Part shown: in pieces, positions 18,901-63,093 of the stretch
Position numbering within the stretch: the stretch's first letter is position 1
Layout of the letters: each line of letters starts with the position of its first letter
Assembly: GCA_017399405.1 (NCBI GenBank)
Contig: JAFQCT010000017.1
Span: 62,001-126,000 of the forward strand
DNA from: Clostridia bacterium
GTDB taxonomy: Bacteria > Bacillota > Clostridia > Oscillospirales > Acutalibacteraceae
Length of the DNA: 64,000 bases
Reading direction: 5' to 3'
Translations under genes and position numbers: made by a program
Notes under the pieces: model-generated
Told to the model about the DNA's origin: nothing
Databases searched by the model: none
What the model saw: the letters and a program-made list of their open reading frames with translations, nothing else

Positions 18901-18939
18901 AAGCCAATTTCATTCCGTTTTGCATTTAAGGGAGAATAA
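15916..18939 (+). CDS. lacZ: GH2 beta-galactosidase
   Basis: This intracellular retaining beta-galactosidase of glycoside hydrolase family 2 has 1007 residues, close to E. coli LacZ. The order is sugar-binding jelly roll (about 50-215), immunoglobulin-like domain, TIM barrel (about 320-620), second Ig domain and C-terminal beta-sandwich (Bgal_small_N). The acid/base is Glu449 in SLGNEAWG and the nucleophile Glu520 in FMCEYVHAMG. The substrate-binding NHHDTN motif is at about residues 337-342. There is no signal peptide. It is followed by a GNAT gene 1 bp away and GH95, suggesting degradation of galactose- and fucose-containing oligosaccharides such as host or milk glycans. Confidence 0.94.
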   Translation: MKYIINRANFRQFDIAEINKLPPRAYFIPYETKKALTEQTVLTERYNSTMVRVLNGEWDFKYYEKDMLIPNEFYTDRVQFDKVTVPCSWQRTGYREPCYLNTRYEFDPKLYPEMPQDVPMGIYRKFIDIKDLDKTYIITFMGVISSLDLYVNGEFVGYSEGAHNSAEFDITKYLVKGENEIVAAVSKWSTGTYLECQDMFRENGIFRDVLFYEYENTYLYDFGVETVKNGDKYDLTVTFDMKGDLNGASISAELLDGKKSLAKETADARAKSKITFSNLDVIEWNAEEPYTYDLLITFVDGNGKKTYVKNVTGFKTIEIKGNVFYFNGMPIKFKGVNHHDTNMHNGYVLTGEEIKEELELMKKFNINSIRTSHYPPDPTLLTLADLMGFYIIDEADIETHGAGDITVPCDNCLISDDPKWENRYVDRVARMYCRDRNHPSITMWSLGNEAWGYYCQDKCYDYLKSQGSKIPVHYESVITTKRFAYDVISEMYPSQENVAKYGSQTAKDKRYHEKPYFMCEYVHAMGVGPGGVEEYWDSIYKYDNLMGGCVWEWADHAVYHDGNDKYKFQYTYGGDHGEEKHDSNFCVDGMLYPDKTPHTGAYVIKAVYRPVRSKHVSGKVFEFTNTNRFKNTKYLTVLWTQYINGCPKKTGELKLDIDPMQTKTYEIDYDKFDSLEDCHINIIYLDGEEQVAIEQTTLNDRATFTPYSVGAGHISTSVKDNTLTVEFQNGKVVFDEKTGEMLNYIKNGYEFLNINPADNKKGFVPNLVRASLDNDSYGQKGGWEKIKLHNATTICKSFDYADKSVCAKIGASYVIKNGFKTHFRANLIYTVYPDGLVNVECQLSKGMFGCDELQRFGVTVELPKELNVVEFYGRGSHEKLENICDLKDHAYIGIWRTDVEAMHEPYVMPQDNGNCGGVKWLKLMNSDGNVFTVYGEPKFSFSAHNYTQKALHKAKHQEELEYADTTFLSIDGFMRGTGTNTCGPDTLPKYVVKSDKPISFRFAFKGE

Positions 18940-18940
18940 T

Positions 18941-19378
18941 ATGTTAGAATATAAATGGTTTGATGGGGGAGTTATTGATAACTCTTTCCGCAATCTACGA
19001 ATTGAAATTTTTGTAAAAGAACAGGGTGTACCTGAAGAAAACGAGTTTGACTCGTTTGATTTAGAAGTTCCACATCTTGTAATCTTCCTTGATGGTGAGG
19101 CAGTAGCCACAGGCAGATTTATTCCTTATGGTGAAAATACTGTTAAAATCGGCAGAATTGCAGTTAAGAAAGAAAAAAGAGGTTTACACCTTGGCGAAAA
19201 AATCGTTCTTGAACTGTTGCGAAAAGCAAAAGAAGACGGTGCAAAAACTGTAAAAGTTGGTGCACAGACTCACGCAGTCGGTTTTTACGAAAAATGCGGA
19301 TTTTCTCTTGTTGGTACTCCCGAATACCTTGAAGAGAACATTCCACATTATGATATGATTTTACATTTCGGAGAATAG
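18941..19378 (+). CDS. GNAT-family N-acetyltransferase (ElaA-like)
   Basis: The cytosolic acyl-CoA-dependent acetyltransferase has 145 residues. The acetyl-CoA-binding motif A is RIAVKKEKRGLHLGEKIV, followed by the Tyr-containing motif AVGFYEKCGF. I chose ATG at 18941, with GGAGA just upstream; an earlier in-frame ATG lies inside lacZ. It is packed between lacZ (1 bp) and GH95 (2 bp). It may acetylate a sugar or amine released by these enzymes, or detoxify accumulated sugar as LacA does, but the substrate is not visible. Confidence 0.85.
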   Translation: MLEYKWFDGGVIDNSFRNLRIEIFVKEQGVPEENEFDSFDLEVPHLVIFLDGEAVATGRFIPYGENTVKIGRIAVKKEKRGLHLGEKIVLELLRKAKEDGAKTVKVGAQTHAVGFYEKCGFSLVGTPEYLEENIPHYDMILHFGE

Positions 19379-19380
19379 TT

Positions 19381-21741
19381 ATGGAAATTAACGAACTTTA
19401 TTACAAAGCTCCACCTTCAAAGTTGAAACTTAAAAAACCATATTTCAAAGGCTTTGAAAATCTTTGGGAACAAACCTCATTACCACTTGGTAACGGTAGT
19501 ATCGGTATGGGTATTATGGGCGAAGTTAAGAAAGATAAAATTATTCTTAACCATAAAACTCTTTGGGCAGGTGGACCTTCGCCAAAACGCCCCGACTATT
19601 GTGGCGGCAATATTACAACTCCCGATAAAAATGGTAAATTTCCTCGCGATTATCATAAAGAAATTTATGAAGCATTCAAAAACGGTGATGATAAAACTGC
19701 TCATAACCTTTGCGAAAAACTTGTAGGTATAAGTGATGGCTACGGCGGGTATCGTTGCTGGGGTGAACTTAAATTTGATTTCCCGAAACTCCGTAAAGAT
19801 AAAAACTATAACCGTGAACTTAATATGCAAAATGGATTGTGCGAAGTATCTTATGACGCTACACTTGGTTTTAACAAAAAAGTCCACGACCAGCGTATAG
19901 CATTTGTATCATATCCCGATAAATGTGGTGTAATTAGAATTGCAAGAACAGGTGCACCACTTAATACTAAAATTTCGCTTTCATCTGCACATGGTAATGC
20001 AGAGTATAAAGATAACCAGATTATTCATAAAGGTAAACTTAGTGACAACGATTTGCAATTCTGCCTTATAGCAAATGTAGTTACGGACGGTAACACAACT
20101 AATAGTAATAGTGGTATTTCTGTTGAAAATGCAACTGAAATTACTGTAATCTTTTCAGCTGATACTGACTATATTGATTGTTACCCAAAATACAGAACAG
20201 GTGAGAGTGCAGAAACACTTTTCAGTAGAGTTAATGAAATAGTAACCAAAGCTACCGAAAAAGGTTTTGACAAACTATTAGAGACCCATAAAGAAGATTT
20301 CTCATCACTTTTCAACAGAGTGTCCCTCGACCTTGATGGTAATGTAATGGGGCCGGCTGACCAACTTATTCATAAATATGAAAAGTTTGACAGAAGAAGT
20401 GCAGAACAACTTCTCTATCAATATGGCAGATATTTAGCAATTTCCTCAACCCGAGAAACTGATATTTTACCGTCAAATCTTCAGGGTATATGGAATGTGT
20501 CAAACGACCCTAAATGGAGTAGTGACTTTCACACTAATGTAAATCTTCAAATGAACTATTGGCCAATTTTCAATGGTAATCTTGCAGAGTGTTCAAAGCC
20601 TTTAATCCGTTATATAAAATCAATGGTTGAGCCAGGTCGTGTAACTGCAGAATATTATACAGGTGTAAAGAGCAAAAATGGTGAGCAAAACGGATTTTTA
20701 TTCCATACACAGTGCACACCATTTGGTTGGACTTGTCCTGGGTGGCAATTTGACTGGGGTTGGTCACCGGCTGCAATGCCTTGGATTTTACATAATTGCT
20801 ATGAGCATTATGAATACACACTCGACAAAGAAACTCTCAAGAATGATATTTACCCAATGCTAAAAGAGTGTGCTGAATATTTCAGCAAACTTCTTGTAGA
20901 GCATAATGGCAGACTTGTAACATATCCTTGCTATTCACCTGAACACGGACCTCGCACAATGGGTAATACTTACGAGCAAGCACTTCTCTGGCAACTTTAT
21001 GATGATGCTTCAAAGAGTGCAATTGTTCTTGGCATTGATGAGGATTATATTACAAAATGGCAAGATATTCAAAGTAAACTAAAAGTTTATGAAATAGGTG
21101 ACGACGGTCAGATTAAAGAGTGGTATCACGAAACCAAACTTGGTGAAATTGGCGAAACTCATCACCGTCATATGTCGCATCTTTTAGGTCTGTTCCCTTG
21201 TAATGTTATGAATAAGTTTACAAACCCTGAACTTATTGACGCATCCATCATCTCAATGAATCACAGAACTGATAAAAGCACAGGCTGGTCTATGGGACAA
21301 AAAATCAATACTTGGGCTCGTGTTGGTGACGGTGACAGAGTTCTTAAAATCATTGGTGACTTGTTCAAAAATGGTATTTATCCTAACTTTTTTGATTACC
21401 ATCCACCATTCCAGATTGATGGTAACTTTGGCTTTACATCAGGTGTCAATGAAATGCTTATGCAAAGTCATTGTGGGTTCATTGAACTTCTTCCTGCACT
21501 TCCAACTGATTGGTGTAAAGGTAGCATTAAAGGTCTTGTAGCCCGCGGTAATTTCACAATCAATATTGAGTGGAATGACGGAAAACTTACAAAAGCCGAA
21601 ATCACTTCAAATATGGGTGGCAAGTGTAAACTCTATTATGGCAAGTCAGAATATGTAGTTGAAAATATTTGTAATAGTGAAAACGGATTTGTAGAATTCC
21701 AATCCGAAAAAGGCAAAACATATACAATTAAAATTAAATAA
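19381..21741 (+). CDS. GH95 alpha-L-fucosidase (or alpha-L-galactosidase)
   Basis: This inverting glycosidase is specific for terminal alpha-L-fucose, classically alpha-1,2-linked; some members act on alpha-L-galactose. The 786 residues contain the N-terminal beta-sandwich motif LPLGNGSIGMGIMGEV and the (alpha/alpha)6-barrel motif DFHTNVNLQMNYWP. Asn386 and Asn388 in that motif match the two catalytic asparagines of the Bifidobacterium enzyme AfcA. The candidate acid is Glu521 in CYSPEHGPR, and DGNFGFTSGVNEML carries the conserved C-terminal Asp. There is no signal peptide, so it acts on imported oligosaccharides. It lies 2 bp after the GNAT gene. Confidence 0.92.
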   Translation: MEINELYYKAPPSKLKLKKPYFKGFENLWEQTSLPLGNGSIGMGIMGEVKKDKIILNHKTLWAGGPSPKRPDYCGGNITTPDKNGKFPRDYHKEIYEAFKNGDDKTAHNLCEKLVGISDGYGGYRCWGELKFDFPKLRKDKNYNRELNMQNGLCEVSYDATLGFNKKVHDQRIAFVSYPDKCGVIRIARTGAPLNTKISLSSAHGNAEYKDNQIIHKGKLSDNDLQFCLIANVVTDGNTTNSNSGISVENATEITVIFSADTDYIDCYPKYRTGESAETLFSRVNEIVTKATEKGFDKLLETHKEDFSSLFNRVSLDLDGNVMGPADQLIHKYEKFDRRSAEQLLYQYGRYLAISSTRETDILPSNLQGIWNVSNDPKWSSDFHTNVNLQMNYWPIFNGNLAECSKPLIRYIKSMVEPGRVTAEYYTGVKSKNGEQNGFLFHTQCTPFGWTCPGWQFDWGWSPAAMPWILHNCYEHYEYTLDKETLKNDIYPMLKECAEYFSKLLVEHNGRLVTYPCYSPEHGPRTMGNTYEQALLWQLYDDASKSAIVLGIDEDYITKWQDIQSKLKVYEIGDDGQIKEWYHETKLGEIGETHHRHMSHLLGLFPCNVMNKFTNPELIDASIISMNHRTDKSTGWSMGQKINTWARVGDGDRVLKIIGDLFKNGIYPNFFDYHPPFQIDGNFGFTSGVNEMLMQSHCGFIELLPALPTDWCKGSIKGLVARGNFTINIEWNDGKLTKAEITSNMGGKCKLYYGKSEYVVENICNSENGFVEFQSEKGKTYTIKIK

Positions 21742-27510: not shown

Positions 27511-27589
27511 TTATTTCCACTACACCTCAATTGACTTTTAATACTAATTATTGTATTATATTTATATACTATTTATCTGGGTGATTGAT

Positions 27590-28891
27590 ATGAGAAGACT
27601 ATCTAAAATTATGGCAATTTTATCTGCCTTTATAATACTTGTTTCAATGTTTGTAATCCCTGCAAGTGCCACAAATGTAAACTATTCGATTACAAGTGCA
27701 AGCGGGCAGAAAGGCGACACCGTTACAGTAACGGTTAAAGTTTCAAGTAGTATCGGTGTAACATCTGCAATACTTAATGTTAATTTTGACAGTTCAAAAC
27801 TTCAATATGTAAGTGGTTCTGCGGGAAGCATGTTTGCTACTTGTAGTGTTAAAGCGAGTAGCAAGTCAAGTGTACAATGTACAGGTATGACAATGGGCGA
27901 TGACAGTGCTAAAAAAAGTGGCACATTTGCAACTCTTAAATTCAAAATCCTTGCAGATTCGGGAACAGCAAGTCTTACAATTTCACCATCAGGTTCAGCA
28001 GGCGACCATTGTGGTGTAGGCACTCCGCCTGTACGCTTATCTCCCGTAACATCTAACGGTAAAATCACAATCACCAAAGCAGTTACAGGCATCTCACTTA
28101 ATAAAACAAGCGTAACACTTAAAAAGGGTGAAACTGCAAGTCTTACTGCAACCGTTACACCAAGTGATGCAACAAATAAAACAGTCACTTACACAACTTC
28201 TAATTCAAAAGTTGCCAAGGTTTCAAGTAGCGGTAAAATCACCGCAGTTGGTGGGGGTACTGCAACAATTACCGCAAAAGCAGGTAGCAAAACAGCAACT
28301 TGTAAAGTAACGGTTAATGTAGCACAAACAGGTATTGCAGTTTCGGGTAACTCATCAAAAACAGTTGCCCAAGGCTCAACATTAAGCCTTAAAGTAGCAA
28401 AAGTTCCGTCAGATGCAACTGACAACTACACAACTACTTGGACTTCTGCCGATACAAGTATTGCAACCGTATCTTCAAAAGGTGTTGTAACAGGTGTGAA
28501 CTTAGGCACAACAACAATTACTGCAAAACAGAATGGTTGGACTGTAACCTATAAAATCACAGTTGCAGAAAAGACAACAGAAAGCGAGACTCAAGAGTCA
28601 TCAACTGACGAAAGCACAACAGAGTCAACAACTGAATCTACAACTGAAAATACAACTTTACCTACAACAACAGAACCTACAATCGAGCCACAAGATAAAG
28701 TTAATTTCTTCCAGAGTGTATGGGCAGAAATCAATGACGAAAATAATAAAGTAACAAAACTTTATCACTATGCAGTTATGGTTATGGTGGCGGTAATTGT
28801 TGGTGCGATTGCTTCAGCAGTTACATACCTTGTAACTTCAGGTTACTATAAAGCAAAACTCAAGAAAAAAGATAACGAAACTCAAGAATAA
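27590..28891 (+). CDS. Membrane-anchored surface protein with cohesin-like and Big2 domains
   Basis: The predicted surface protein has 433 residues. A signal peptide (about 1-27, ending PASA) is followed by a cohesin-like beta-sandwich (about 29-158). Two bacterial Ig-like Big2 domains follow (VTGISLNKTSVTLKKGETASL and QTGIAVSGNSSKTVAQGSTL starts), then a Thr/Ser/Glu-rich wall-spanning linker, a membrane helix near 392-414 and a short KKK tail. Cohesins bind dockerins in cellulosomes, but non-cellulosomal adhesins use them too. I see no dockerin in this window. Start ATG 27590 follows GGGTGA; the earlier in-frame ATG has no ribosome binding site. It is 12 bp before nfo. Confidence 0.82.
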   Translation: MRRLSKIMAILSAFIILVSMFVIPASATNVNYSITSASGQKGDTVTVTVKVSSSIGVTSAILNVNFDSSKLQYVSGSAGSMFATCSVKASSKSSVQCTGMTMGDDSAKKSGTFATLKFKILADSGTASLTISPSGSAGDHCGVGTPPVRLSPVTSNGKITITKAVTGISLNKTSVTLKKGETASLTATVTPSDATNKTVTYTTSNSKVAKVSSSGKITAVGGGTATITAKAGSKTATCKVTVNVAQTGIAVSGNSSKTVAQGSTLSLKVAKVPSDATDNYTTTWTSADTSIATVSSKGVVTGVNLGTTTITAKQNGWTVTYKITVAEKTTESETQESSTDESTTESTTESTTENTTLPTTTEPTIEPQDKVNFFQSVWAEINDENNKVTKLYHYAVMVMVAVIVGAIASAVTYLVTSGYYKAKLKKKDNETQE

Positions 28892-51637: not shown

Positions 51638-51657
51638 GTTAAACTTTAACAGAATAA

Positions 51658-51690
51658 ATCCTCATTCCAATAGGAATGGGGATTTTTTTA
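51658..51690 (+). terminator. Terminator of rplJL
   Basis: ATCCTCATTCC / GGAATGGGGAT followed by seven T. Confidence 0.92.
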
Positions 51691-51765
51691 TTGTTCTTTT
51701 GTTGAAAATATATATTTGTTATGGTAGAATTAGTTAAATATATATTTATAAGGGGAAATTTGACT

Positions 51766-52203
51766 ATGTCAAGGTATTCAGACCGAGCAGTCCAGTTGTT
51801 TATGGAAGGCAAAAACTGTTCTCAAGCAGTTTTTGTAGCCTTTGCAACTGATTTAGGATTATCTGAAGAAACTGCTCTTGCAATATCAATAGGTCTTGGC
51901 GGTGGCGTTGGTAGAATGCGTGAAGTATGCGGTGCAGTCAGTGGCAGTGCAATGGTTGTAGGACTTAAATATCCTGAACTTTCAAAAGCAGAAGTTTATG
52001 AAAAAGTTCGCCTTATTGCAGACGAGTTTAAGAAAACAAATCCATCAATTGTGTGTAAAGAACTTTTAGGGCTTTCAAAACCTGAAACTTCAAGTGTCCC
52101 TGAGGCAAGAACACAGGAATATTATCAGAAACGACCTTGTATAAAAATTGTTGAAGACGCCGCGTTGGCAACAGAAAAAATATTATTTGGTGAGGCAAAA
52201 TAA
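51766..52203 (+). CDS. C_GCAxxG_C_C family protein
   Basis: The 145-residue protein of the C_GCAxxG_C_C (redox-active cysteine) family contains NCSQAVFVAF, GGGVGRMREVCGAVSGSAMV, SIVCKELL and KRPCIKIVEDAA, the four conserved cysteine positions of the family. Members are often found near redox or transport genes, with no settled function. I chose ATG 51766 after GGGGAAATTTGACT. Its stop is 1 bp from the glycosidase start at 52205, so it appears to be the first gene of the large catabolic operon. Confidence 0.88.
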   Translation: MSRYSDRAVQLFMEGKNCSQAVFVAFATDLGLSEETALAISIGLGGGVGRMREVCGAVSGSAMVVGLKYPELSKAEVYEKVRLIADEFKKTNPSIVCKELLGLSKPETSSVPEARTQEYYQKRPCIKIVEDAALATEKILFGEAK

Positions 52204-52204
52204 A

Positions 52205-54892
52205 ATGTCAGGTTCTTATGCTTATTTTGAAAACAATACTGCTATAATCGGCAACGATTACATTGAAAGACGCTTTTCTACAAAAGATAATCGTCTTGTT
52301 ACAACAGAGATTATCAATAAAAGAATTAACGGTAGCAAATCTGTGAAGTTTGACGATTTTTCTGCCGAATTTTTCGTTGCTTTTAAGGTTAAAAAACTTT
52401 TTGGTTACAAAACAGAGTTTTTATCTTCAAATAATCTTGAACTCGACAAAGTGAATGTGCTTAAACGCAGAGTTGAGTTCGTTTTCAAACCGTATGCTTA
52501 TAATGGTGCAAGAATTACATTTATTGTTAATGTAGAAATTGACGATAACAACCACTATATGCATAAGTATATTGAAATGATGATTGACCCTGACCGTCAG
52601 CATTTAATTACTGTTGATTATATTGACGGTGAGCACATTTCTATCAAAAACAAAGAGCAGGAATGGAAAATTGGTGAAATCGAAAAAGCGTATCTTACAG
52701 AATACCATAGTGCGTTAGGTCAGCCGGTTTACCTAAATGGCTTGTTCTTTGGTTCAGAGTTCCCGCTTGCTGAAAATAATATTGATGGCAGTACACTTTA
52801 TTGCCGATATTTCACAGGTAAGCGTTTTGATGAATTAAAACTTAACTGTGGTCATACTTACAGATGTTGGAATACTGTTGTTGGTGCAGCAAGAAGCCTT
52901 GATTTGCGAGTTATTCGTGAAGATTTCTTAACATATATTCGTGATATTTCAAGAAAAGTTAAACCTCGTTTTCAATATAATTCTTGGTATGACCATATGC
53001 ACGACATTACAAATGAAAATATTATTGAGTCATTCCAGCATATTGAAAACAACCTTTCAAAAACAATGGTGCCACCACTTGATTCTTATGTAGTTGATGA
53101 TGGTTTCGTTGATTGGGACGCTTCATTTTGGGCGTTTAATAAAAAATTCCCTGAAGAATTATATCCAGCAGCAACAATGGCAAGAAAATTTTCATCGAAC
53201 TTTGGTCTTTGGAATGGCCCAAGAGGTGGATATAACGACAAAACCGCATCTTTTGCTAAACGAATGGAAAAAGCTGGTAAAGGCGGATATAACAGATTTG
53301 CAAATGATGTTTGCGTATCCTCGACTGAATATATTAAGAATATTACAGAATATTACCTTGAAAATGACCGTAAATTTGATATAAATTACTGGAAACTTGA
53401 CGGTTTCTTGTTAAGAGCTTGCCCATCTAAAAAGCACGGTCATATGATAGGCGGATACAATCAAATGTATCAGTATACAGAAATGTGGGAAAATTGGATT
53501 AACATTTTCCGCAAACTTCGTATTACTCGTGAAAGTGCAGGCAAAGATTTGTGGATTAACCAGACAAGTTATTGTAATGCAAGTCCTTGGTTTTTACAGT
53601 GGTCAGATAGTCTTTGGATTCAGAATAGCGGTGACATCGGCTTTATTGATAAAACTAAAAAAGGCGAGAAATTAAGTGACCGTGATGTTGATAGAGTCCT
53701 TACATACCGTGACAATTGTTATCACGACTTCAGCGTTGTAAGAAATTATCAGTTCCCACACGAATTTATCTATAATCATGACCCAATTTACGGTAATACC
53801 GCAAAAATCTCAATGACAGATGAAGAATTCCGTAAATATATGTTTATGATGGCAACACGCGGTACTGCATTTTGGGAACTTTATTATTCATATAATATGT
53901 TCAATATTGCAAAGTGGCGTATAAATGCAGATGCTTTAAGATTTATTCGTAACGATTACGAAACACTTAAAACATCACAGTTTATTGGCGGTTGTCCCGA
54001 AAAAGGTGAGGCTTACGGTTATTCTTGTTGGAGTGAAAACAAGGGTATTATCTCACTTCGTAACCCTGCAAATCGTCAGCAAAGTATTACAGTAACTCTT
54101 GACGAAACAATCGGCGTAAGTCATGATATGAAAAATCTAAAAATGGTTTATGTTTATCCTTACGATAAGAAAACCGATGGTAAAACATATTCTTATGGTG
54201 AAGTGATTACTGTTAATCTTATGTCACTTGAAGCTTTGATTATGAAGTTTACACAAGTTCAAGAAAACTTGCCTGAACTTGTTTATGGCAGATTTGAAAG
54301 TGATAGAGAGTTATTACTTTTCTTTAACGACAGAATTTATATTGACGCTGAAATGATTTCATCAAATGCAAAAATATCAGATTATAAGTTGCTTGAAGAT
54401 TACAGCACATTGAAAATTATTTTTGAAAATCCTGTTAAAAAGCCTTATGTATCAATTACTGTTAAAAACGCTTATGGCGATTTTAATGACATTATGTTCA
54501 AAGGTCAATATTATAAGGATTTTATCTGTGATGAGGCTAAAACACCTTGTGGCAGAGATTTTACAGTTCAATGTACGATTAACAATGCAGATAATGGCGT
54601 ATTACTTGCTATTGGTGACATTGTCAATGTAAGTAATCGTGAGGGTTATGGTGTAATCAGATTTGATAGTAAAACAAGTCTCGGTGATATTGCAGTTAAT
54701 GAAAATGATAAACTTACTGTGGTTTGTGAGCCTAACGGACTTATAAAACTTTATGTAAACAGTAACCTTGCTTGTTCTGTTTATAATGGTGATGAGTATT
54801 GTACTGCACTGGAAAATGCAGAAATTACAATCACAGATAAAGTAAGTGACTTAAGAGTTATATCAAAAGCACTCAATTTCAATGAAATATAG
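52205..54892 (+). CDS. Large alpha-galactosidase-superfamily (clan GH-D/GH31-like) glycosidase, specificity unknown
   Basis: The cytosolic protein of 895 residues has an N-terminal beta-sandwich (about 1-245) followed by a TIM barrel with clan GH-D-like motifs. These are QYNSWYD (about 257-263), VVDDGFVDWD (about 296-305), the putative nucleophile Asp399 in YWKLDGF and a putative acid/base Asp468 in QWSDSLW. The end (about 765-890) is a lectin-like LamG/ConA-type beta-sandwich. It is not a close match to ordinary GH36 melibiases, so the substrate is open. It starts 1 bp after the C_GCAxxG_C_C gene and is followed by a GH31 gene and a sugar-acid pathway. Confidence 0.7.
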   Translation: MSGSYAYFENNTAIIGNDYIERRFSTKDNRLVTTEIINKRINGSKSVKFDDFSAEFFVAFKVKKLFGYKTEFLSSNNLELDKVNVLKRRVEFVFKPYAYNGARITFIVNVEIDDNNHYMHKYIEMMIDPDRQHLITVDYIDGEHISIKNKEQEWKIGEIEKAYLTEYHSALGQPVYLNGLFFGSEFPLAENNIDGSTLYCRYFTGKRFDELKLNCGHTYRCWNTVVGAARSLDLRVIREDFLTYIRDISRKVKPRFQYNSWYDHMHDITNENIIESFQHIENNLSKTMVPPLDSYVVDDGFVDWDASFWAFNKKFPEELYPAATMARKFSSNFGLWNGPRGGYNDKTASFAKRMEKAGKGGYNRFANDVCVSSTEYIKNITEYYLENDRKFDINYWKLDGFLLRACPSKKHGHMIGGYNQMYQYTEMWENWINIFRKLRITRESAGKDLWINQTSYCNASPWFLQWSDSLWIQNSGDIGFIDKTKKGEKLSDRDVDRVLTYRDNCYHDFSVVRNYQFPHEFIYNHDPIYGNTAKISMTDEEFRKYMFMMATRGTAFWELYYSYNMFNIAKWRINADALRFIRNDYETLKTSQFIGGCPEKGEAYGYSCWSENKGIISLRNPANRQQSITVTLDETIGVSHDMKNLKMVYVYPYDKKTDGKTYSYGEVITVNLMSLEALIMKFTQVQENLPELVYGRFESDRELLLFFNDRIYIDAEMISSNAKISDYKLLEDYSTLKIIFENPVKKPYVSITVKNAYGDFNDIMFKGQYYKDFICDEAKTPCGRDFTVQCTINNADNGVLLAIGDIVNVSNREGYGVIRFDSKTSLGDIAVNENDKLTVVCEPNGLIKLYVNSNLACSVYNGDEYCTALENAEITITDKVSDLRVISKALNFNEI

Positions 54893-54906
54893 GGGAGTAA
54901 GGGATT

Positions 54907-57282
54907 ATGTCAGAGTTGAACAAACAACTTTTAGCAAAAACTGATGCTAAAGCCTGTGATGATAATATTGTTTTGTGTGGTAATGTTCGTGTAACTGTAC
55001 TTACTGCAACAATGTTTCGTGTTGAATTTTCAACTGACGGTAAGTTTACAGATTTACCATCACAAAGTATTTGGTATAGAAATTTCGGTAAAGTTTATTT
55101 TGCAACTGAAGAAAATGCGGATTCTTTTACTGTTAAAACAGATAAGGCAGAAATATGTATAAATAGTCATACAGGCAGTTTTAAGTATGCAGTATTTGAC
55201 GGTAATAAACTTACATACAATACATCAAATAATCTTAAAGGTACAACCCGTACTCTTGACCAGACTTATGGTCCAAAAGAACTTGATGAAGGTATTATCT
55301 CAACTGATGGTGTGTCAACTTATGACGACAGTAAAACACTTCTTTTGAATGAAGATGGAACACTTTCGTCTCGTGATGATGGCACAAAAGATATTTATGT
55401 TTTTGTATATGGCAAAGACTATGTGTCCGGCATAAACGACTTCTATAAAATTACAGGTATGCCACCACTTGTGCCTCGTTACACATTAGGTAACTGGTGG
55501 AGTCGTTATCGTGCATATACACAAAAAGAGTATGAGGATTTAATGTCAGAGTTTTTCCGTCGTGATATTCCTCTTACAATCGCAACTGTTGATATGGATT
55601 GGCATTGGGTTGACCTTAAAAAGCAGTTCAATAAAAAATATAAATCAAGCAATATTTTAAGTAGCGGTTGGACAGGTTATAGCTGGAATACTGAATTGTT
55701 CCCTGATTATAAAGGTTTCTTACAGAAACTTCACGATATGGGACTTAAAGTGACCCTTAATCTTCACCCTGCAGATGGCGTTCGTGCTTTTGAAGATATG
55801 TATGAGCAAATGGCAGATGCTATGGGTATTGACAAAACTACTGAACAGTCAGTCGAGTTTGACTTGACAAATAAGAAGTTTATCAACGCATATTTTGATA
55901 TTCTTCATCATCCTTATGAAAATGAAGGCGTTGACTTCTGGTGGATTGACTGGCAACAAGGCACAAAGAGTAAAAAAGCAGGTCTTGACCCGTTGTGGCT
56001 TCTTAACCATTATCATTATCTTGACACAGACCGTGACGACCGTCGTCCAATGATTTTGTCTCGTTATGCGGGTATTGGCTCACATCGTTATCCATTAGGA
56101 TTTTCAGGTGATACCGCAATTAACTGGAGTGTTCTTAACTTCCAACCGTACTTTACTGCAAATGCGGCAAACTGCGGTTATACTTGGTGGAGTCACGATA
56201 TCGGCGGTCATATGATGGGCGACCACGATGATGAACTTTACATTCGTTGGCTTCAACTTGCAGTATTTTTACCGATTTTAAGACTTCACTCAACAAACCT
56301 TGATATTCTTGGCAAAGAGCCTTGGAACTTTAGTTGGGAGGCAGAAACTCTTGGTACAGAGTATTTGCGACTTCGCCATAAAATGATTCCATATATTTAT
56401 GCTATGAATTATCGCACATATAACGAGGGTAGGGCATTATGCGAACCGCTTTATTATACATATCCCGAAAACAAAGAAGCATTTGAATATGGAAATGAAT
56501 ATTTTTTTGGTTCAGAACTTCTTGTATGCCCCGTAACTACAAAAATGGATGAAAAAACAAAAACTGCCGCAACAAAGGTGTGGTTGCCTGAGGGTAGATG
56601 GACTAACATTTTTGATGGTAAGATTTATAAGGGTGGTCAGGAAACAGTAATCAATAGCCCTATTAACACAATCCCTGTGCTTGCTAAAGAGGGTGCAATT
56701 ATTCCAATGTCAAAAGATAACGGAAACTCTTGGGAATGTCCTGAACGCCTTGAAATCAACATTTATCGTGGTAATAATTCAATCAATTTCTATGAAGATG
56801 ATGGCGAAACAGGTAAATATAAGAGTGGCGAGTACTCGATTACAACAATGACAGTAGCCGAAGAAGAAAATACTATTAAGTTTACAATCAGCGGTGGTAA
56901 ATCTCTTAAATGTATCCCTGCAAAGCGTGAATATACTCTTAATTTCAAAGATGTTGAAGATTTTGACGAAGTTGAAGTTATGGTAAACGGAATAGTTACC
57001 CCTGTTACAAGTGGTAAATCTTTCGTTAAAATCAGCGATATTACCGTTGCTGATGAAATTACAGTATTACTTAAAGGCGTTGTTGCAAGAAAAAATAAGC
57101 CGGTTAAAGAGCGTGCTCTTGATTGCATTATTCATCTTAATGGCGGAAATATGAAGAAAATGCTAACAAGTACACGACTTAAAAACTGTGAAACAGAAAA
57201 AGATTATAAATCATTTATCAGATGCACAAAAGCAAAATCCTTGCGTATGTGCCTCGATGAAGCAGTATTTGCAATGGAATAA
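54907..57282 (+). CDS. GH31-family alpha-glycosidase
   Basis: The retaining alpha-glycosidase has 791 residues and no signal peptide. It has an N-terminal beta-sandwich (about 20-180) and a barrel with TVDMDWHWVD. The nucleophile is Asp348 (VDFWWIDWQQG), the acid/base Asp402 (GFSGDTAINW), and the substrate-binding region is WWSHDIGGH. A beta-sandwich and about 60 extra C-terminal residues follow. GH31 covers alpha-glucosidases, xylosidases, galactosidases and N-acetylgalactosaminidases; the sequence alone does not fix which. It is 14 bp downstream of the GH-D-like enzyme and 14 bp upstream of the sugar dehydrogenase. Confidence 0.9.
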   Translation: MSELNKQLLAKTDAKACDDNIVLCGNVRVTVLTATMFRVEFSTDGKFTDLPSQSIWYRNFGKVYFATEENADSFTVKTDKAEICINSHTGSFKYAVFDGNKLTYNTSNNLKGTTRTLDQTYGPKELDEGIISTDGVSTYDDSKTLLLNEDGTLSSRDDGTKDIYVFVYGKDYVSGINDFYKITGMPPLVPRYTLGNWWSRYRAYTQKEYEDLMSEFFRRDIPLTIATVDMDWHWVDLKKQFNKKYKSSNILSSGWTGYSWNTELFPDYKGFLQKLHDMGLKVTLNLHPADGVRAFEDMYEQMADAMGIDKTTEQSVEFDLTNKKFINAYFDILHHPYENEGVDFWWIDWQQGTKSKKAGLDPLWLLNHYHYLDTDRDDRRPMILSRYAGIGSHRYPLGFSGDTAINWSVLNFQPYFTANAANCGYTWWSHDIGGHMMGDHDDELYIRWLQLAVFLPILRLHSTNLDILGKEPWNFSWEAETLGTEYLRLRHKMIPYIYAMNYRTYNEGRALCEPLYYTYPENKEAFEYGNEYFFGSELLVCPVTTKMDEKTKTAATKVWLPEGRWTNIFDGKIYKGGQETVINSPINTIPVLAKEGAIIPMSKDNGNSWECPERLEINIYRGNNSINFYEDDGETGKYKSGEYSITTMTVAEEENTIKFTISGGKSLKCIPAKREYTLNFKDVEDFDEVEVMVNGIVTPVTSGKSFVKISDITVADEITVLLKGVVARKNKPVKERALDCIIHLNGGNMKKMLTSTRLKNCETEKDYKSFIRCTKAKSLRMCLDEAVFAME

Positions 57283-57296
57283 AAGGATTTGATTTT

Positions 57297-58502
57297 ATGA
57301 AAACTAACGGTACATATTTTCAAAACGATAAAGAATTGCCAATTAAATATGGCGAAATCAACTTAATAAATCCTGAAAGACAAAGACTTCGTGGTGAGCC
57401 ATTGCTTAAAGGTGTAGAGGTATATCCTGTTTTTCAGGGCTTTTGTGGTACAGATTTTGAACTTATGAAAATGGGCAGAGAAAATAATCTTTCTCATAAA
57501 TTCCCTGAAGGTGAAAATCGCCTTATAAACGGTCACGAAGGCGTAGTGTGGGTGCCAAGCGAAAACAGATTTGCAATTGTGCTTATCCGTGGTGGTGACA
57601 GCTATGACCCAACACGCTATACAGAAGACGAAACATATTTTGAATATGGTTGCGATAAGGCTGACGGACTTTTCTGTGATAAAAACTACTTTAATCCGGA
57701 TATGCTCTTGCACTTGCCAAAGGAATATGAAAGTTTAGAAAAACTACCTTTATCAGTAGCAAAAAAACTCTCATTTGCTGACCCTTACGCTTGTGCTATC
57801 TTCCAACTTGAAAGAATGGAAGATTTAGGTGAAGCACAGAATTTTCGAGTTGAAATGGCAAAGCATAAATGCACAGAACAAGAGGCAAGAAAGTTAGCAA
57901 AAGACAATATATTCTCAAAAACAGTTGTTTTCGGTCTTGGTATGACAGGTCTTTTTATTGCAGACCAAATCAGAAGAAATCACCCTGACGCACAAATTTT
58001 ATTCGTTGGCAGAAGTGATGAAAACTGCAAAAAGGTTACATTTTCAAAAGAGATTACAAATGCCGACTACCTTTGCACATCAGGTCTATCTGAAGAAGAA
58101 ACAGCACATAAGATTATGGAGAAAATCGGTGGTCGTGCAACTATGTTCGTTGGTACAAGCGGTAGTAATGTTGAACACAGAATCGCATTTCAACACAAAG
58201 TACTTGGCTGTAATGGCGTTTATAACAGTTTCTCGTTAGGACCACAAGTAACTTACGATACAATGCCATTTGGCTTCGAAAATCATGTTATTTTCGCATC
58301 AATTAACTTTAGACAAGAACATATGGAAAAAGCAATCCAAGTACTTGTTGATTCCCGCTATGACGAAGTTGTTGAGCTCATTGATAAAAAAGAATTTATC
58401 AAAGACCCACTCAATGCTTATGAAAACAAAATATTCTGTAAAGGTGCACCTCTTAAAACAGGCGTTATATGGAATAAAGACTATATAGAAGAAGGCAAAT
58501 AA
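57297..58502 (+). CDS. Zn-dependent sugar 1-dehydrogenase (glucose-dehydrogenase-like MDR)
   Basis: The medium-chain dehydrogenase has 401 residues and resembles archaeal-type glucose/galactose 1-dehydrogenases with the Glu_dehyd C-terminal domain. Catalytic zinc ligands are Cys50 (GFCGTDFEL) and His80-Glu81 (NGHEG). The coenzyme-binding Rossmann motif is VVFGLGMTGLFIADQIRR (about 209-226). In this operon it is placed to oxidise the released sugar to a lactone, the first step before the lactonase and aldonate dehydrogenase. Which sugar it takes is inferred, not shown. It is 1 bp before the next gene. Confidence 0.82.
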   Translation: MKTNGTYFQNDKELPIKYGEINLINPERQRLRGEPLLKGVEVYPVFQGFCGTDFELMKMGRENNLSHKFPEGENRLINGHEGVVWVPSENRFAIVLIRGGDSYDPTRYTEDETYFEYGCDKADGLFCDKNYFNPDMLLHLPKEYESLEKLPLSVAKKLSFADPYACAIFQLERMEDLGEAQNFRVEMAKHKCTEQEARKLAKDNIFSKTVVFGLGMTGLFIADQIRRNHPDAQILFVGRSDENCKKVTFSKEITNADYLCTSGLSEEETAHKIMEKIGGRATMFVGTSGSNVEHRIAFQHKVLGCNGVYNSFSLGPQVTYDTMPFGFENHVIFASINFRQEHMEKAIQVLVDSRYDEVVELIDKKEFIKDPLNAYENKIFCKGAPLKTGVIWNKDYIEEGK

Positions 58503-58503
58503 A

Positions 58504-59523
58504 ATGAAAGCAATAGTAATCCCTAATCCAAACGAAATTGAAATTCGTGAAGTATCAATGCCTGAAGTGAAAGAGGGCGAGGCACTTCTTAAAGTTAAAT
58601 ATGTTGGTATCTGCGGTGCCGATGTTGCATCATTCACAGGTAATCAGCCATTTACAACATATCCAAGAATCCCTGGTCACGAATTTTCAGCAGAGATTGT
58701 TGCAATCCCTGAAAATGATAAGGGCTTAAAAGCAGGGGATATTGTTACTTGTAATCCATATTTTAACTGTGGCACTTGTTACTCTTGTGAGCGTGGATAT
58801 GTAAATTGTTGTACAGATAATCAGACAATGGGTGTTCAACGAGATGGTGCATTCTGTGAGTATATCTCAATGCCTATCGAAAGAATTTATGATGGTAAAG
58901 GTCTTTCAGCTCAAGAATTAGCACTTATCGAGCCATTTGCAATTTCACAACACGCAGTTTCCCGTGCAACTATTAAAGAAACTGACAATGTGCTTGTAAT
59001 CGGTGCAGGTCCAATCGGACTTTTTGCACTCCTTGCTGCAAAGCAGAAATGTAATAGAATCGTAGTTGCTGATATTCTTGACAACCGTCTCCGACTTGCA
59101 ACAGAATACGGTGCAGACGCGGTTGTTAATACAAAAACACAGTCTCTTGAAGAATTTACAAAAGAATTTACTAACGGAAACGGTTTTGATGTTTGTATCG
59201 AGGCTTGTGGTGCACCTGAAACATTTTTGGGTTGTATTGAAAATGCCGCATTTGCTGCTAATATCATTCTCATTGGTAATGGCAAGCGTGAAACTAATTT
59301 TGTTCACTCAATAATTCTTAAAAAAGAATTAAATATTCACGGTAGCCGTAATGCTTTGAAAGATGACTTTATCAATTTAATTGATATTGTAGCAAGCAAA
59401 AAAGCAGACCCTATGAAAATGGTTAGTGGAGTCTATGATATTGATAATGCCCTTGATGCTTTCAAAGCACTTGCTAACAACGATGGCACACTTGCAAAAC
59501 TTCTTATAAAAATAGGAGATTAA
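58504..59523 (+). CDS. Zn-dependent aldonate 5-dehydrogenase (L-galactonate/L-idonate type)
   Basis: The medium-chain zinc alcohol dehydrogenase has 339 residues. The catalytic zinc ligands Cys37 and His59-Glu60 (GICGADVASF, IPGHEFS) and all four structural cysteines (89, 92, 95, 103) are present, plus the Rossmann motif VIGAGPIGLFALLAAK. Family relatives include L-idonate, L-threonine and L-galactonate 5-dehydrogenases. Directly upstream of tagaturonate reductase, the reaction that makes sense is L-galactonate to D-tagaturonate. It is 1 bp after the preceding gene. Confidence 0.85.
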   Translation: MKAIVIPNPNEIEIREVSMPEVKEGEALLKVKYVGICGADVASFTGNQPFTTYPRIPGHEFSAEIVAIPENDKGLKAGDIVTCNPYFNCGTCYSCERGYVNCCTDNQTMGVQRDGAFCEYISMPIERIYDGKGLSAQELALIEPFAISQHAVSRATIKETDNVLVIGAGPIGLFALLAAKQKCNRIVVADILDNRLRLATEYGADAVVNTKTQSLEEFTKEFTNGNGFDVCIEACGAPETFLGCIENAAFAANIILIGNGKRETNFVHSIILKKELNIHGSRNALKDDFINLIDIVASKKADPMKMVSGVYDIDNALDAFKALANNDGTLAKLLIKIGD

Positions 59524-59524
59524 T

Positions 59525-60841
59525 ATGAAAGAAACAGTAATTCAATTTGGTGAAGGTAATTTCCTTCGTGGTTTTTTCGACTATTTCCTTCATAAGATGA
59601 ACCAAAAAGGTCTTTATGATGGTAAAGCCGTTGTTGTTCAACCAATCTCTATTGGTAGGGCAGCAGACCTAAACGCTCAAAATTGTAAATACAATCTTTA
59701 TTTAAGAGGTATTCAGAATGGTGAAATCGTTAAGGAGCACACATTTGTTGAATCTATTTCAAGATGTGTTGACCCATATAAAAATTTTGAAGATTACATT
59801 TCACTTGCTGATAACCCTGATTTCCGTTTTATCGTTTCAAATACAACTGAGGCAGGCATTGAGTTCGTTGATACTTGCAAATTCCAAGATAAACCTGCTT
59901 TGTCATTTCCCGGCAAACTTACACAACTCCTTTACAGGCGTTATAAAAACGGACTTAATGGATTTGTAATTCTTGCTTGCGAGCTTATTGATAATAATGG
60001 TACAGAACTTAAAAAATGTGTTCTTAAATATGCAGAACTTTGGGATTTAGGTGCTGATTTTGTCACTTGGCTTGAAAACGAAAATCATTTTATCAATACT
60101 CTTGTTGATAGAATTGTTACAGGATATCCAAACGACGAAACAAAAGAAATGCACCCTGACGACAAATTCCTTGATACAGCAGAAATTTTTCACCTTTGGG
60201 TTATCGAAGGCAACTTCGAAGACGAGTTCCCGCTTAAAAAAGCAGGCTTTAATGTCGTATGGACAGACGATGCAAAGCCATATAAGAAAATCAAGGTAAG
60301 AATTCTTAACGGTGCCCATACTTCACTTGTTGCAGGTGCGTTACTTTCAGAAATTGAAACAGTAGGAGAAGCGATGAACAAAGAGCTTACTTCTGCATTC
60401 CTCAACAAAGCAATGAAAGAAGAAATCTTGTCAACAATTGGCGAAAATGAAGACAGTATCGCATTTGCAAATAATGTGTTTGACCGTTTCAAAAACCCAT
60501 TCATTCAACATAAATGGCGTTCAATCGCGTTAAACTCAGTTAGCAAATATTCAGTACGCGTTTTGCCAACACTCCTTGAGTATAAAGAGAAAAACGGTGA
60601 GTATCCAAAACTTCTCACTATGTCATTAGCATATCTTCTTTATTTCTATAAAAATGATGACCCTGATGATGCAACAGATGTTGTTACAACAATGAAAAAT
60701 GATAGTATTGCAGAAATTCTCGCAAATGTATCGTTATGGCAGAATGACCTTTCAGATATGACAGAAATCGTGACTGAATACTATAACAAAATCGACACTC
60801 TCGGTGCAAAGGAAACAATGAAATGGATTGTATCACAATAA
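59525..60841 (+). CDS. uxaB: Tagaturonate reductase (altronate oxidoreductase)
   Basis: The NADH-dependent polyol dehydrogenase-family enzyme reduces D-tagaturonate to D-altronate. The 438 residues begin IQFGEGNFLRGFFDYFLHKMN, the UxaB-type N-terminal dinucleotide-binding site. They continue with SNTTEAGIEF and the catalytic region KIKVRILNGAHTSLVAGALL. It lies between the 5-dehydrogenase (1 bp) and uxaA, which overlaps its end by 19 bp. Confidence 0.93.
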   Translation: MKETVIQFGEGNFLRGFFDYFLHKMNQKGLYDGKAVVVQPISIGRAADLNAQNCKYNLYLRGIQNGEIVKEHTFVESISRCVDPYKNFEDYISLADNPDFRFIVSNTTEAGIEFVDTCKFQDKPALSFPGKLTQLLYRRYKNGLNGFVILACELIDNNGTELKKCVLKYAELWDLGADFVTWLENENHFINTLVDRIVTGYPNDETKEMHPDDKFLDTAEIFHLWVIEGNFEDEFPLKKAGFNVVWTDDAKPYKKIKVRILNGAHTSLVAGALLSEIETVGEAMNKELTSAFLNKAMKEEILSTIGENEDSIAFANNVFDRFKNPFIQHKWRSIALNSVSKYSVRVLPTLLEYKEKNGEYPKLLTMSLAYLLYFYKNDDPDDATDVVTTMKNDSIAEILANVSLWQNDLSDMTEIVTEYYNKIDTLGAKETMKWIVSQ

Positions 60842-62196
60842 ACGAAAAAGATAATGTCTGCGTAAACCTCGAAACAGGCCATAAAATCGCAATTTGCGAT
60901 ATAGAAAAAGGTGCAGATATTATTAAATATGGCTACCCAATCGGATTTGCAACCGAAAATATCAAAAAAGGCGACTCTGTTCATTCTCATAATATGAAAA
61001 CAAAGTTAGGGGACATTCTATCTTATGAATACAAACCAACCTTTGAAGAACTTGCACCAAAAAAGCCTTTTACAATCAAAGCTTTCGTCCGTGAAAATGG
61101 TGATATAGGCATAAGAAATGATATTTGGATTATTCCCACAGTTGGTTGTGTAAACAGTATTGCAAAACAATTAGCCGAAAAAACAGGTGCAATTTATTTT
61201 TCGCATCCATACGGTTGTAGTCAGTTAGGCGACGATATGAAAGTTACCCAACTTGTTCTTCGCGGACTTATCAATCACCCAAATGCAGGTGGTGTGTTGG
61301 TACTTGGACTTGGCTGTGAAAACAATAATTTAGGCGAAATGAAAGCAGTTTTAGGCTTGTGGAACGAAAACAGAGTGAAATTTCTTTCCGTGCAGGATTG
61401 TGAAGATGAATTGGAACAAGGAATTGCACTTATAAATGAATTAAAAGAATACACCTCAAAGGATAAGCGTGAAGAAGTATCTGTTTCAAAACTTAAAATC
61501 GGACTTAAATGTGGTGGCTCTGACGGATTTTCAGGAATTACTGCAAACGCAGTTGTAGGTAAGGTTACCGACGAAATCTGTGCTATGGGAGGTACTGCAG
61601 TTCTTACCGAAGTTCCTGAAATGTTCGGGGCAGAAACCGTACTTTTTGACAGATGTATAAATAAAGAAGTTTTTGATAAAAGCGTAAATCTTATCAATAA
61701 TTTCAAGCAATATTTCAAAGACCACGGTGAGCCTGTTTCTGAAAATCCATCTCCCGGTAATAAAGAGGGTGGAATCACTACGCTTGAAGAAAAATCTCTC
61801 GGTTGTGTGCAAAAGGGTGGTACAGCTCCGGTTGTTGATGTGCTCAACTATGGCGAAACTCTCACAAAATCCGGTCTTAATCTTCTTAACGGACCGGGTA
61901 ATGATATTGTCTCAATTACAAATCTTTCTGCAGTTGGTTGTCATCTTGTGTTATTTACAACCGGTAGGGGAACACCACTCGGCGGACCTGTGCCAACAGT
62001 TAAAATCGCATCTAATGACACTATCGCAACAAAAAAGAATCATTGGATTGATTATTCTGCTTATGGCTTTGACAATCAAGCGAAGGCAGACGAATTATTA
62101 GACCTTATCAAACGAGTTGCCAATGGTGAACTCACAAAAAATGAGGTTCAGGGTAATCGTGAAATTGCAATATTTAAGGACGGAGTGACATTATGA
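60823..62196 (+). CDS. uxaA: Altronate dehydratase
   Basis: The enzyme converts D-altronate to 2-keto-3-deoxy-D-gluconate. The 457 residues have an N-terminal SAF-like domain (about 1-75, with HKIAICDIEKGADIIKYGYPIG) and the C-terminal catalytic domain containing RNDIWIIPTVGCVNS, SHPYGCSQLGDD, GLGCENNN, LKCGGSDGFSGITANAVVG and LFTTGRGTPLGGPVPTVKIASN. It overlaps uxaB by 19 bp and the next gene by 4 bp (ATGA). The isomerase uxaC, usually with it in galacturonate pathways, is not in the window. Confidence 0.95.
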   Translation: MDCITINEKDNVCVNLETGHKIAICDIEKGADIIKYGYPIGFATENIKKGDSVHSHNMKTKLGDILSYEYKPTFEELAPKKPFTIKAFVRENGDIGIRNDIWIIPTVGCVNSIAKQLAEKTGAIYFSHPYGCSQLGDDMKVTQLVLRGLINHPNAGGVLVLGLGCENNNLGEMKAVLGLWNENRVKFLSVQDCEDELEQGIALINELKEYTSKDKREEVSVSKLKIGLKCGGSDGFSGITANAVVGKVTDEICAMGGTAVLTEVPEMFGAETVLFDRCINKEVFDKSVNLINNFKQYFKDHGEPVSENPSPGNKEGGITTLEEKSLGCVQKGGTAPVVDVLNYGETLTKSGLNLLNGPGNDIVSITNLSAVGCHLVLFTTGRGTPLGGPVPTVKIASNDTIATKKNHWIDYSAYGFDNQAKADELLDLIKRVANGELTKNEVQGNREIAIFKDGVTL

Positions 62197-63059
62197 TTAT
62201 TGATGCACACGCTCATTTATGGAAAAAACAAAACGGGTTAGTAAATGGCAAACCAGTTTATGATATTGGTGGCGGTAAAAGTGATTTCGGCGGAGAAATC
62301 AAACAAATGATACCCCCATATATGACAGACGGTGAAAATACAGTAGAACGCTTTCTTGCCAATATGGATTATGCAGGGGTTTCGGGTGCTGTAATTACAC
62401 AAGAATATATAGATGGTAATCAGGATGAATACTTGCTTACTTGCAAAAGTGACAGAATTAAAATCTGCACATTATATCAAGAAAAGCCAATGGGGGATAT
62501 AAGCCAGTTTAACGGAATTAAAATCTGTGCAGGCCGACTTCAAGACAAAAATCTCCTCAACCACATTGAACCATTCAAACTTGCAAATGATAACGGCAAA
62601 TTTATTTCAATAGACCTTGCTGATGGCGACGAGCAAACTTTAATGATGCAAAAAATTATTGATATGTTTCCAGACCTTAAAATCGCAATCGGACATTTCG
62701 GTATGGTTACCCGTGACAATTGGCTCGAACAGATAAAACTTGCAAAGAATAAAAATGTTTTCATTGAAAGTGGTGGAATAACTTGGCTTTTCAATAGTGA
62801 GTTTTACCCATATCCATCTGCAATTAAAGCGATGATTGAGTCTGCAAATCTTGTGGGTTACGATAAACTTATGTGGGGTAGCGATTACCCTCGCACAATG
62901 ACTGCAATCACATATAAAATGAGTCTTGATTTCATAGAAAAATCGACAGAAATCAACCCAGAAAACAAAAAACTGATTCTCGGCGAAAACGCAAGAAATT
63001 TCTATGGATTCAAAGACCTTCCAATCCCACAAAAAATCAAAAATATAGTCGAAGACTAA
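62193..63059 (+). CDS. Amidohydrolase-family (COG3618/COG2159-type) putative sugar lactonase
   Basis: The TIM-barrel metal hydrolase has 288 residues. It carries an N-terminal DAHAHLW (His6/His8 metal pair), IAIGHFGM near residue 168 and the C-terminal MWGSDYPRT with the catalytic Asp. Related enzymes hydrolyse L-fucono-, L-rhamnono- and L-galactono-lactones. In this operon it would open the lactone made by the sugar 1-dehydrogenase. The start overlaps the uxaA stop (ATGA). It is the last gene, ending at a strong terminator. Confidence 0.8.
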   Translation: MIIDAHAHLWKKQNGLVNGKPVYDIGGGKSDFGGEIKQMIPPYMTDGENTVERFLANMDYAGVSGAVITQEYIDGNQDEYLLTCKSDRIKICTLYQEKPMGDISQFNGIKICAGRLQDKNLLNHIEPFKLANDNGKFISIDLADGDEQTLMMQKIIDMFPDLKIAIGHFGMVTRDNWLEQIKLAKNKNVFIESGGITWLFNSEFYPYPSAIKAMIESANLVGYDKLMWGSDYPRTMTAITYKMSLDFIEKSTEINPENKKLILGENARNFYGFKDLPIPQKIKNIVED

Positions 63060-63063
63060 AAAT

Positions 63064-63093
63064 AACACCCACCATTTTTGGTGGGTGTTTTCT
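63064..63093 (+). terminator. Terminator of the catabolic operon
   Basis: AACACCCACCA-TTTT-TGGTGGGTGTT followed by TTC, directly after the lactonase gene. Confidence 0.92.

Follow-up and report, generated by a model that had tools for sequence, protein, structure and literature searches.

The locus and its genes

The genes considered here lie in a stretch of 64,000 nucleotides, referred to below as the window, from a gut Clostridia bacterium (assembly GCA_017399405.1, contig JAFQCT010000017.1, positions 62,001 to 126,000 of the forward strand). A reading made from the sequence alone had described seven tightly spaced genes between 52205 and 63059 as a complete route from an alpha-glycoside, by way of L-galactose, to 2-keto-3-deoxygluconate (KDG). 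All seven open reading frames (ORFs) are present at these coordinates, separated by 14, 14, 1 and 1 bp except at two junctions, where they overlap by 19 and 4 bp. An eighth gene, encoding a C_GCAxxG protein, ends 1 bp before 52205 and the apparent transcription unit is one of eight genes. Comparison with other genomes suggests that the last five, from 57297 to 63059, probably form a catabolic cassette for L-galactose and that the genes in front of them belong to a separate unit. Genes are named below by their first nucleotide, and the features of the unit are as follows.

51702..51730, forward strand: possible sigma-70-like promoter, TTGAAA-17-TAGAAT with TG before the second hexamer (10/12 matches)
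51766..52203, forward strand: putative redox protein of the C_GCAxxG_C_C type, opening the unit (PF09719, 1.9e-33)
52205..54892, forward strand: 895-aa protein, possible clan GH-D glycosidase (weak profile similarity)
54907..57282, forward strand: GH31 (PF01055, 3.4e-57)
57297..58502, forward strand: sugar 1-dehydrogenase of the medium-chain dehydrogenase/reductase (MDR) type, glucose-dehydrogenase-like in its predicted model; proposed L-galactose dehydrogenase
58504..59523, forward strand: zinc MDR, proposed L-galactonate 5-dehydrogenase (family scores, RspB relative)
59525..60841, forward strand: tagaturonate reductase UxaB (NF002969, 518.5 bits)
60823..62196, forward strand: altronate dehydratase UxaA (PF20629, 2.8e-94; PF04295, 7e-41)
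62193..63059, forward strand: amidohydrolase, proposed L-galactonolactonase (PF04909, 2.2e-26)
63064..63089, forward strand: terminator-like stem-loop of 11 pairs, closing the unit

The region held 54 promoter-like sites against 41.4 +/- 6.7 in shuffled sequence, which is not clearly above chance, and the site at 51702-51730 was singled out for its position after a terminator-like stem at 51656-51685, upstream of the unit. The Pfam query for the C_GCAxxG gene began at 51757, the start at 51766 being picked by eye from frame and sequence.

Enzymes of the five-gene cassette

Pfam and NCBIfam supported the family placement of 54907 (GH31), 58504 (zinc MDR), 59525 (tagaturonate reductase), 60823 (PF20629 and PF04295) and 62193 (Amidohydro_2), while the cases for 57297 (by fold) and for 52205 (profile similarity at E 0.15-0.69) were weaker. 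The product of 57297 had no Pfam or NCBIfam match at E <= 0.001. Its AlphaFold model (pLDDT 87) is that of a medium-chain dehydrogenase across most of its length and its best fold matches are glucose dehydrogenases, the closest being the glucose 1-dehydrogenases 2cdb, 3wic and 2b5w, with 15-22% identity, a level at which sugar stereochemistry cannot be transferred from one to the other. The modelled fold is consistent with a dehydrogenase of aldoses or polyols, and the motifs invariant in the family, C50-G-T-D53 and G79-H-E-G82, are presumably those of a zinc MDR. In an even class-wide search only its own genome, of 391, yielded a relative at E <= 1e-30, so the family is a narrow one.

The 58504 product scored 226 bits to NF007489 (cut-off 376) and 201 bits to the IolM model NF041097 (cut-off 450), reaching neither threshold, and its best solved relative is RspB (4ilk, 1.7e-52). 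The score of 59525 lies well above the cut-off of 359 for tagaturonate reductase. The two Pfam families matched by 60823 are common to galactarate dehydratase, for which the TIGR03248 score of 218.6 bits was far under the cut-off of 730.85. The amidohydrolase 62193 belongs to Amidohydro_2, a family that also includes other hydrolases and decarboxylases, and H6, H8, H168 and D231 are invariant in 17 aligned members.

As proposed here, 57297 would convert L-galactose to its lactone by oxidation at C1, 62193 would open this lactone to L-galactonate and 58504 would oxidise L-galactonate at C5 to D-tagaturonate, which UxaB would reduce to D-altronate and UxaA dehydrate to KDG; KDG kinase and 2-keto-3-deoxy-6-phosphogluconate (KDPG) aldolase, encoded elsewhere, would then give pyruvate and glyceraldehyde 3-phosphate. 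By established stereochemistry, oxidation of L-galactose at C1 and then at C5 yields D-tagaturonate; for D-altrose as the starting sugar, 58504 and UxaB would both be superfluous. The predicted glucose 1-dehydrogenase-like fold favours C1 as the position at which 57297 would act. What was observed is which genes are present, their families and copy numbers, how far they are conserved and what lies beside them; every substrate is inferred.

Conservation and distribution of the cassette

One scan of genome contigs with 57297 returned 253 stretches encoding a relative, up to ~250 species-level genomes, and 80 loci were kept and examined. To judge by their titles these are mostly metagenome-assembled genomes of gut Clostridia, many of them from ruminants. 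Cassette genes were counted by tblastn; antisense ORFs hid some of them from the ORF caller. A homologue of 58504 was found in 77 of the 80 loci and directly behind the 57297 homologue in 76. The amidohydrolase was present in 68 loci, UxaB in 49 and UxaA in 47. The full set of five occurred in 43 loci, and a further 23 had the two dehydrogenases and the amidohydrolase only; 19 of the 80 have less than 5 kb of sequence downstream. Of the cassettes seen in the genus, those of genomes G031 and G013 are nearest, with 92% identity in 57297, and in G031 the cassette follows a gene that by eye resembles dnaJ.

Across 37 genomes of the genus the dehydrogenase was associated both with UxaA (13/17 genomes with it, 3/20 without; Fisher p 2.4e-4) and with UxaB (14/17 against 3/20; p 5.6e-5), p values that kinship among the genomes makes too optimistic. 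Fifty cassette genomes, corresponding to 50 of the 80 loci, were searched as wholes. UxaA was present in 49, including those whose cassette is without it, and as one gene in 48 of the 49 (a split copy being counted as one), and a KDPG-aldolase-family match was present in 47, the exceptions being G064, G105 and G106. The sets overlap, in that 9 of 19 tested genus stretches are also named loci and locus L083, in G105, coincides with a stretch of G027.

Four genomes of the genus (G023, G024, G027 and G030; loci L142-L145), 88-98% complete, carry 57297, 58504 and 62193 with neither UxaA nor a KDPG-aldolase match; G027 has UxaB elsewhere in its genome. In 17 cassette genomes the aldolase accompanied UxaA throughout (13/13 with UxaA, 0/4 without), but the rule is not strict: the aldolase is missing from three genomes with UxaA, namely G061 (68% complete), G064 and G106, all of them small or incomplete assemblies. 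It is conceivable, if doubtful, that 57297 is the first of a family of medium-chain enzymes that oxidise L-fuco sugars at C1 and have no kinship with the known L-galactose dehydrogenases and that in the four genomes named first the 5-keto-aldonate takes an undescribed route.

The front module

The product of 52205 had no match in Pfam, NCBIfam or PDB sequences. A profile of its family reached the clan GH-D enzymes (GH31/GH36 alpha-galactosidases) only at the E-values given above, and 4 of 19 members touched Melibiase at E <= 0.1. The 19-row alignment has D298-D299-G300 and K397-L-D399-G400 as invariants; a single-sequence structure model, with a pLDDT of 32, was not used. The catalytic domain of the GH31 (54907) is secure (PF01055, 194.7 bits against a cut-off of 23.5) and its nearest solved relative, at 620 bits, is 7wj9, which is LlGH31_u1, an alpha-1,3-glucosidase of Lactococcus (PMC9061262). 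An activity of that kind would not free L-galactose.

Matches to 52205 were found in 34 of 40 genomes of the genus, one of them only a fragment; four others, with 33-39% identity, may be paralogues. In all of the 21 other genus loci that were fetched for a 52205 homologue (20 plus L161) the C_GCAxxG gene precedes it, in 18 a GH31 lies downstream, and in 16 the upstream genes include rplJ and rplL in the same orientation. None of the 21 has a homologue of 57297, 58504 or 62193 behind the 52205 homologue, and 8 of them sit in genomes whose cassette is elsewhere. UxaB-UxaA stands behind the front trio in one, L161 of genome G022, without 57297; the order there is C_GCAxxG, 52205-type gene, GH31, a 326-aa ORF and UxaB-UxaA, and sugar dehydrogenases are missing. 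The 80 loci with a 57297 homologue include none with a 52205 homologue by tblastn, and GH31 was found in two of them at 51-52% identity (L050 and L051) and in two more at 24-25%.

Since the front unit and the cassette each recur without the other, the best account of the window's operon is that two modules have been fused, one a unit common in the genus and the other the cassette. The order of seven genes, which the sequence-only reading had proposed to look for in relatives, was found in none of the 80 loci of 57297 type or the 21 of 52205 type, and a complete route from an alpha-glycoside is not supported, the glycosidases being a separate unit that many genomes of the genus have without a cassette beside it. 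In terms of conserved gene content the glycosidase step is outside the pathway, and a metabolic link between front unit and cassette is not among the findings.

Pathway genes elsewhere in the genome

UxaB and UxaA are each matched once in the genome of the window, and both matches fall within this operon. The hexuronate isomerase gene uxaC, reported earlier as absent, is indeed missing from the operon but is encoded in the genome, as a single orphan copy on another contig (C2). With the sole UxaB and UxaA located here and uxaC an orphan, the substrate that enters UxaB is probably genuine D-tagaturonate, and the two enzymes presumably also take D-tagaturonate derived from galacturonate. A comparable arrangement was seen in G034, where uxaB lies beside uxaC (the latter by eye) and the cassette contains the one uxaA match of the genome. 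Likely kdgK and kdgA genes were found outside the operon, in a uxuA-kdgK-kdgA cluster: a KDPG aldolase (PF01081) is encoded at G000:C2:43242-43820, G000 being the window's own genome, in a cluster with a mannonate-dehydratase-like gene, an SDR and an adjacent pfkB-type kinase, these three recognised by eye.

The same genome has a FucI operon, in which FucI is accompanied by genes resembling FucU, FucK and, as judged by eye, FucA. Full-length FucI was found in 14 of the 17 cassette genomes of the genus and in 11 of 20 without a cassette, which is no significant link (p 0.09).

Neighbouring genes

GH29, GH95 and FucU, which are best known for L-fucose, were found near the cassette more often than rough Poisson expectations: GH29 in 14 of the 80 loci (expected 1.6), GH95 in 7 (1.3) and FucU/RbsD in 5 (0.65). 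A caveat applies to these expectations, as the GH29 copy number came from the data and those of GH95 and FucU were assumed, and the loci are related and not independent; of each cluster of neighbours one representative was checked by Pfam. In all five FucU loci the end of the FucU ORF all but coincides with the beginning of the 57297 match, ranging from 4 bp within it to 1 bp ahead of it. The neighbours point to a sugar of L-fuco configuration as the likely substrate. Presence of GH29 or GH95 is no marker of the cassette genus-wide, GH29 being found in 40 and GH95 in 35 of 40 genomes. GH110-like (GLAA-B) genes, one of them checked by Pfam, lie near the cassette in L050, L051, L079, L080, L084, L086, L091-L093, L095 and L096, and fit alpha-1,3-galactosylated host glycans.

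The GH95 matches in the 80 loci have threonine at one motif residue in eight of nine cases and histidine in one (L042). Forty GH95 stretches from the genus comprised 14 of the threonine type, 13 with histidine, 10 of another motif class and 3 without a match. Seven of the 14 lie within 24 kb of a cassette, that of G034 is ~48 kb from one on the same long contig, and G002 and G026, which lack a 57297 homologue, also have the threonine type. The window's own GH95 (19381-21741) has histidine, the residue of the fucosidase AfcA.

Some further features were observed along the way. In the window a LacZ-type GH2 beta-galactosidase (1007 aa) precedes the GH95, the two together spanning 15916-21741, and 27551-28891 encodes a protein with cohesin and Big_2 domains. 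Directly downstream of the window (L099, 8607-12227) are genes resembling type I restriction-modification subunits, and L152 has a Cas9-like N-terminal sequence at 2-2989 on the minus strand, both recognised by eye.

Comparison with known systems

Plant GALDH and BVU_0219 of Bacteroides vulgatus are aldo-keto reductases and LguA of Luteolibacter is taken to be like them, whereas 57297 models as a medium-chain enzyme. LguA clusters with the other two (PMC12632266). In Luteolibacter sp. LG18 the lguABCDEF genes encode a pathway for L-glucose and L-galactose and mutants grow poorly on L-galactose; as in the cassette, L-galactose/L-glucose dehydrogenase, L-galactonate dehydrogenase, tagaturonate reductase and altronate dehydratase are clustered and the KDG kinase lies outside, but the lgu cluster includes the KDPG aldolase, no lactonase gene is listed and the organism belongs to the Verrucomicrobiota, not the Clostridia (PMC12632266). 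In Bacteroides (Phocaeicola) vulgatus, BVU_0219 and BVU_0222 are likewise reported to provide L-galactose and L-galactonate dehydrogenases leading to D-tagaturonate (cited in PMC12632266); BVU_0219 is set apart from 57297 here by its grouping and by the model of 57297. The L-galactonate route of E. coli (LgoD, UxaB, UxaA) shares 5-dehydrogenation, tagaturonate reduction and altronate dehydration, but it begins at L-galactonate and is without a sugar dehydrogenase or lactonase step (PMC12632266).

Going by the predicted fold of 57297, the window would follow a known pathway logic with a first enzyme from another superfamily. For B. vulgatus, Hobbs 2014 is said to have described a dehydrogenase, a lactonase and a second dehydrogenase leading to D-tagaturonate. 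Bacterial L-galactose pathways have been described in Bacteroidota and Verrucomicrobiota, and a search with Lgu sequences found no genome with the L-galactose orthologues alone (PMC12632266); because it was made with those sequences, it would miss a pathway with another first enzyme. No report of L-galactose catabolism in Clostridia was found in a literature search.

Alternative explanations

For the last five genes L-galactose chemistry remains the explanation that fits best, without the glycosidase start first given to it, and is strengthened because the cassette is conserved, neighbours for L-fuco sugars are enriched, UxaB and UxaA are single-copy and presumably serve galacturonate too, and KDG genes are present. 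Two points weigh against it. GH110, GH101-like and GH35 genes are also found near the cassette and fit host glycans, hence L-fucose too, and the threonine or histidine of GH95, considered as proof of L-galactose over L-fucose, was dropped as not diagnostic because a threonine-type GH95 exists that is fucose-specific (PMC8245568). An oxidative L-fucose route, passing through L-fuconate, its 5-keto form, 6-deoxy-D-altronate and a 6-deoxy analogue of KDG to an aldolase, or use of both sugars, is unlikely without being negligible. The GH29, GH95 and FucU neighbours would suit it, as would GH110 and GH101-like genes if the source were mucin glycans, and L-fucose is commoner than L-galactose. It has to contend, however, with the FucI operon of the same genome and full-length FucI in most cassette genomes of the genus, with a sole UxaB and UxaA that presumably serve galacturonate, and with the KDPG-aldolase-family gene in 47 of 50 cassette genomes, as a 6-deoxy product could not be phosphorylated at C6. 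A search for L-fuconate dehydratase gave no enolase-superfamily match among the operon proteins, the rest of the genome lying beyond that search.

It is improbable that the operon serves chiefly D-galacturonate, with the distant uxaC feeding its UxaB and UxaA and the dehydrogenases otherwise employed. The genome does have uxaC and no second match to UxaB or UxaA, and in G022 the trio is followed by UxaB-UxaA without dehydrogenases, yet 57297, 58504 and 62193, the genes in which the cassette varies least, would be left unexplained, and galacturonate use is compatible with L-galactose use, since UxaB and UxaA can serve both. The full original proposal, in which 52205 and the GH31 free the L-galactose used by the cassette, is still harder to credit. 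Both genes are co-directional with the cassette at gaps of 14 bp in this genome, and L050 and L051 hold a GH31 in the same locus as the cassette, but the recurrence of trio members in 21 loci without the dehydrogenases, 8 of them in genomes with the cassette elsewhere, tells against it. The nearest relative of the GH31 is an alpha-1,3-glucosidase, and L-galactosidase activity has been described in GH95 (PMC4491172, PMC7176698). Least probable is a myo-inositol route of the Thermotoga type. That route likewise proceeds through D-tagaturonate, and the sub-threshold IolM score of 58504 would be in keeping with it. Its IolO is a 5-keto-L-gluconate 4-epimerase (PMC12632266), but no IolG (Gfo/Idh), IolN or IolO-type family was found among the operon proteins, which were the ones searched, and it is L-fuco glycosidases and FucU that are enriched near the cassette.

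Implications

A caution from this locus is that modules without relation to each other may be brought together by close packing in a single genome; the glycosidase genes seemed to belong to the pathway until other genomes were compared. L-galactose occurs in cereal glucuronoarabinoxylan (PMC7176698, PMC4491172). If the five genes from 57297 onwards do serve its catabolism, the occurrence of the cassette in many gut Clostridia would widen the range of L-galactose eaters and give a marker gene for them, and with the 57297 family there would be two independent ways of taking the first step of L-galactose use.

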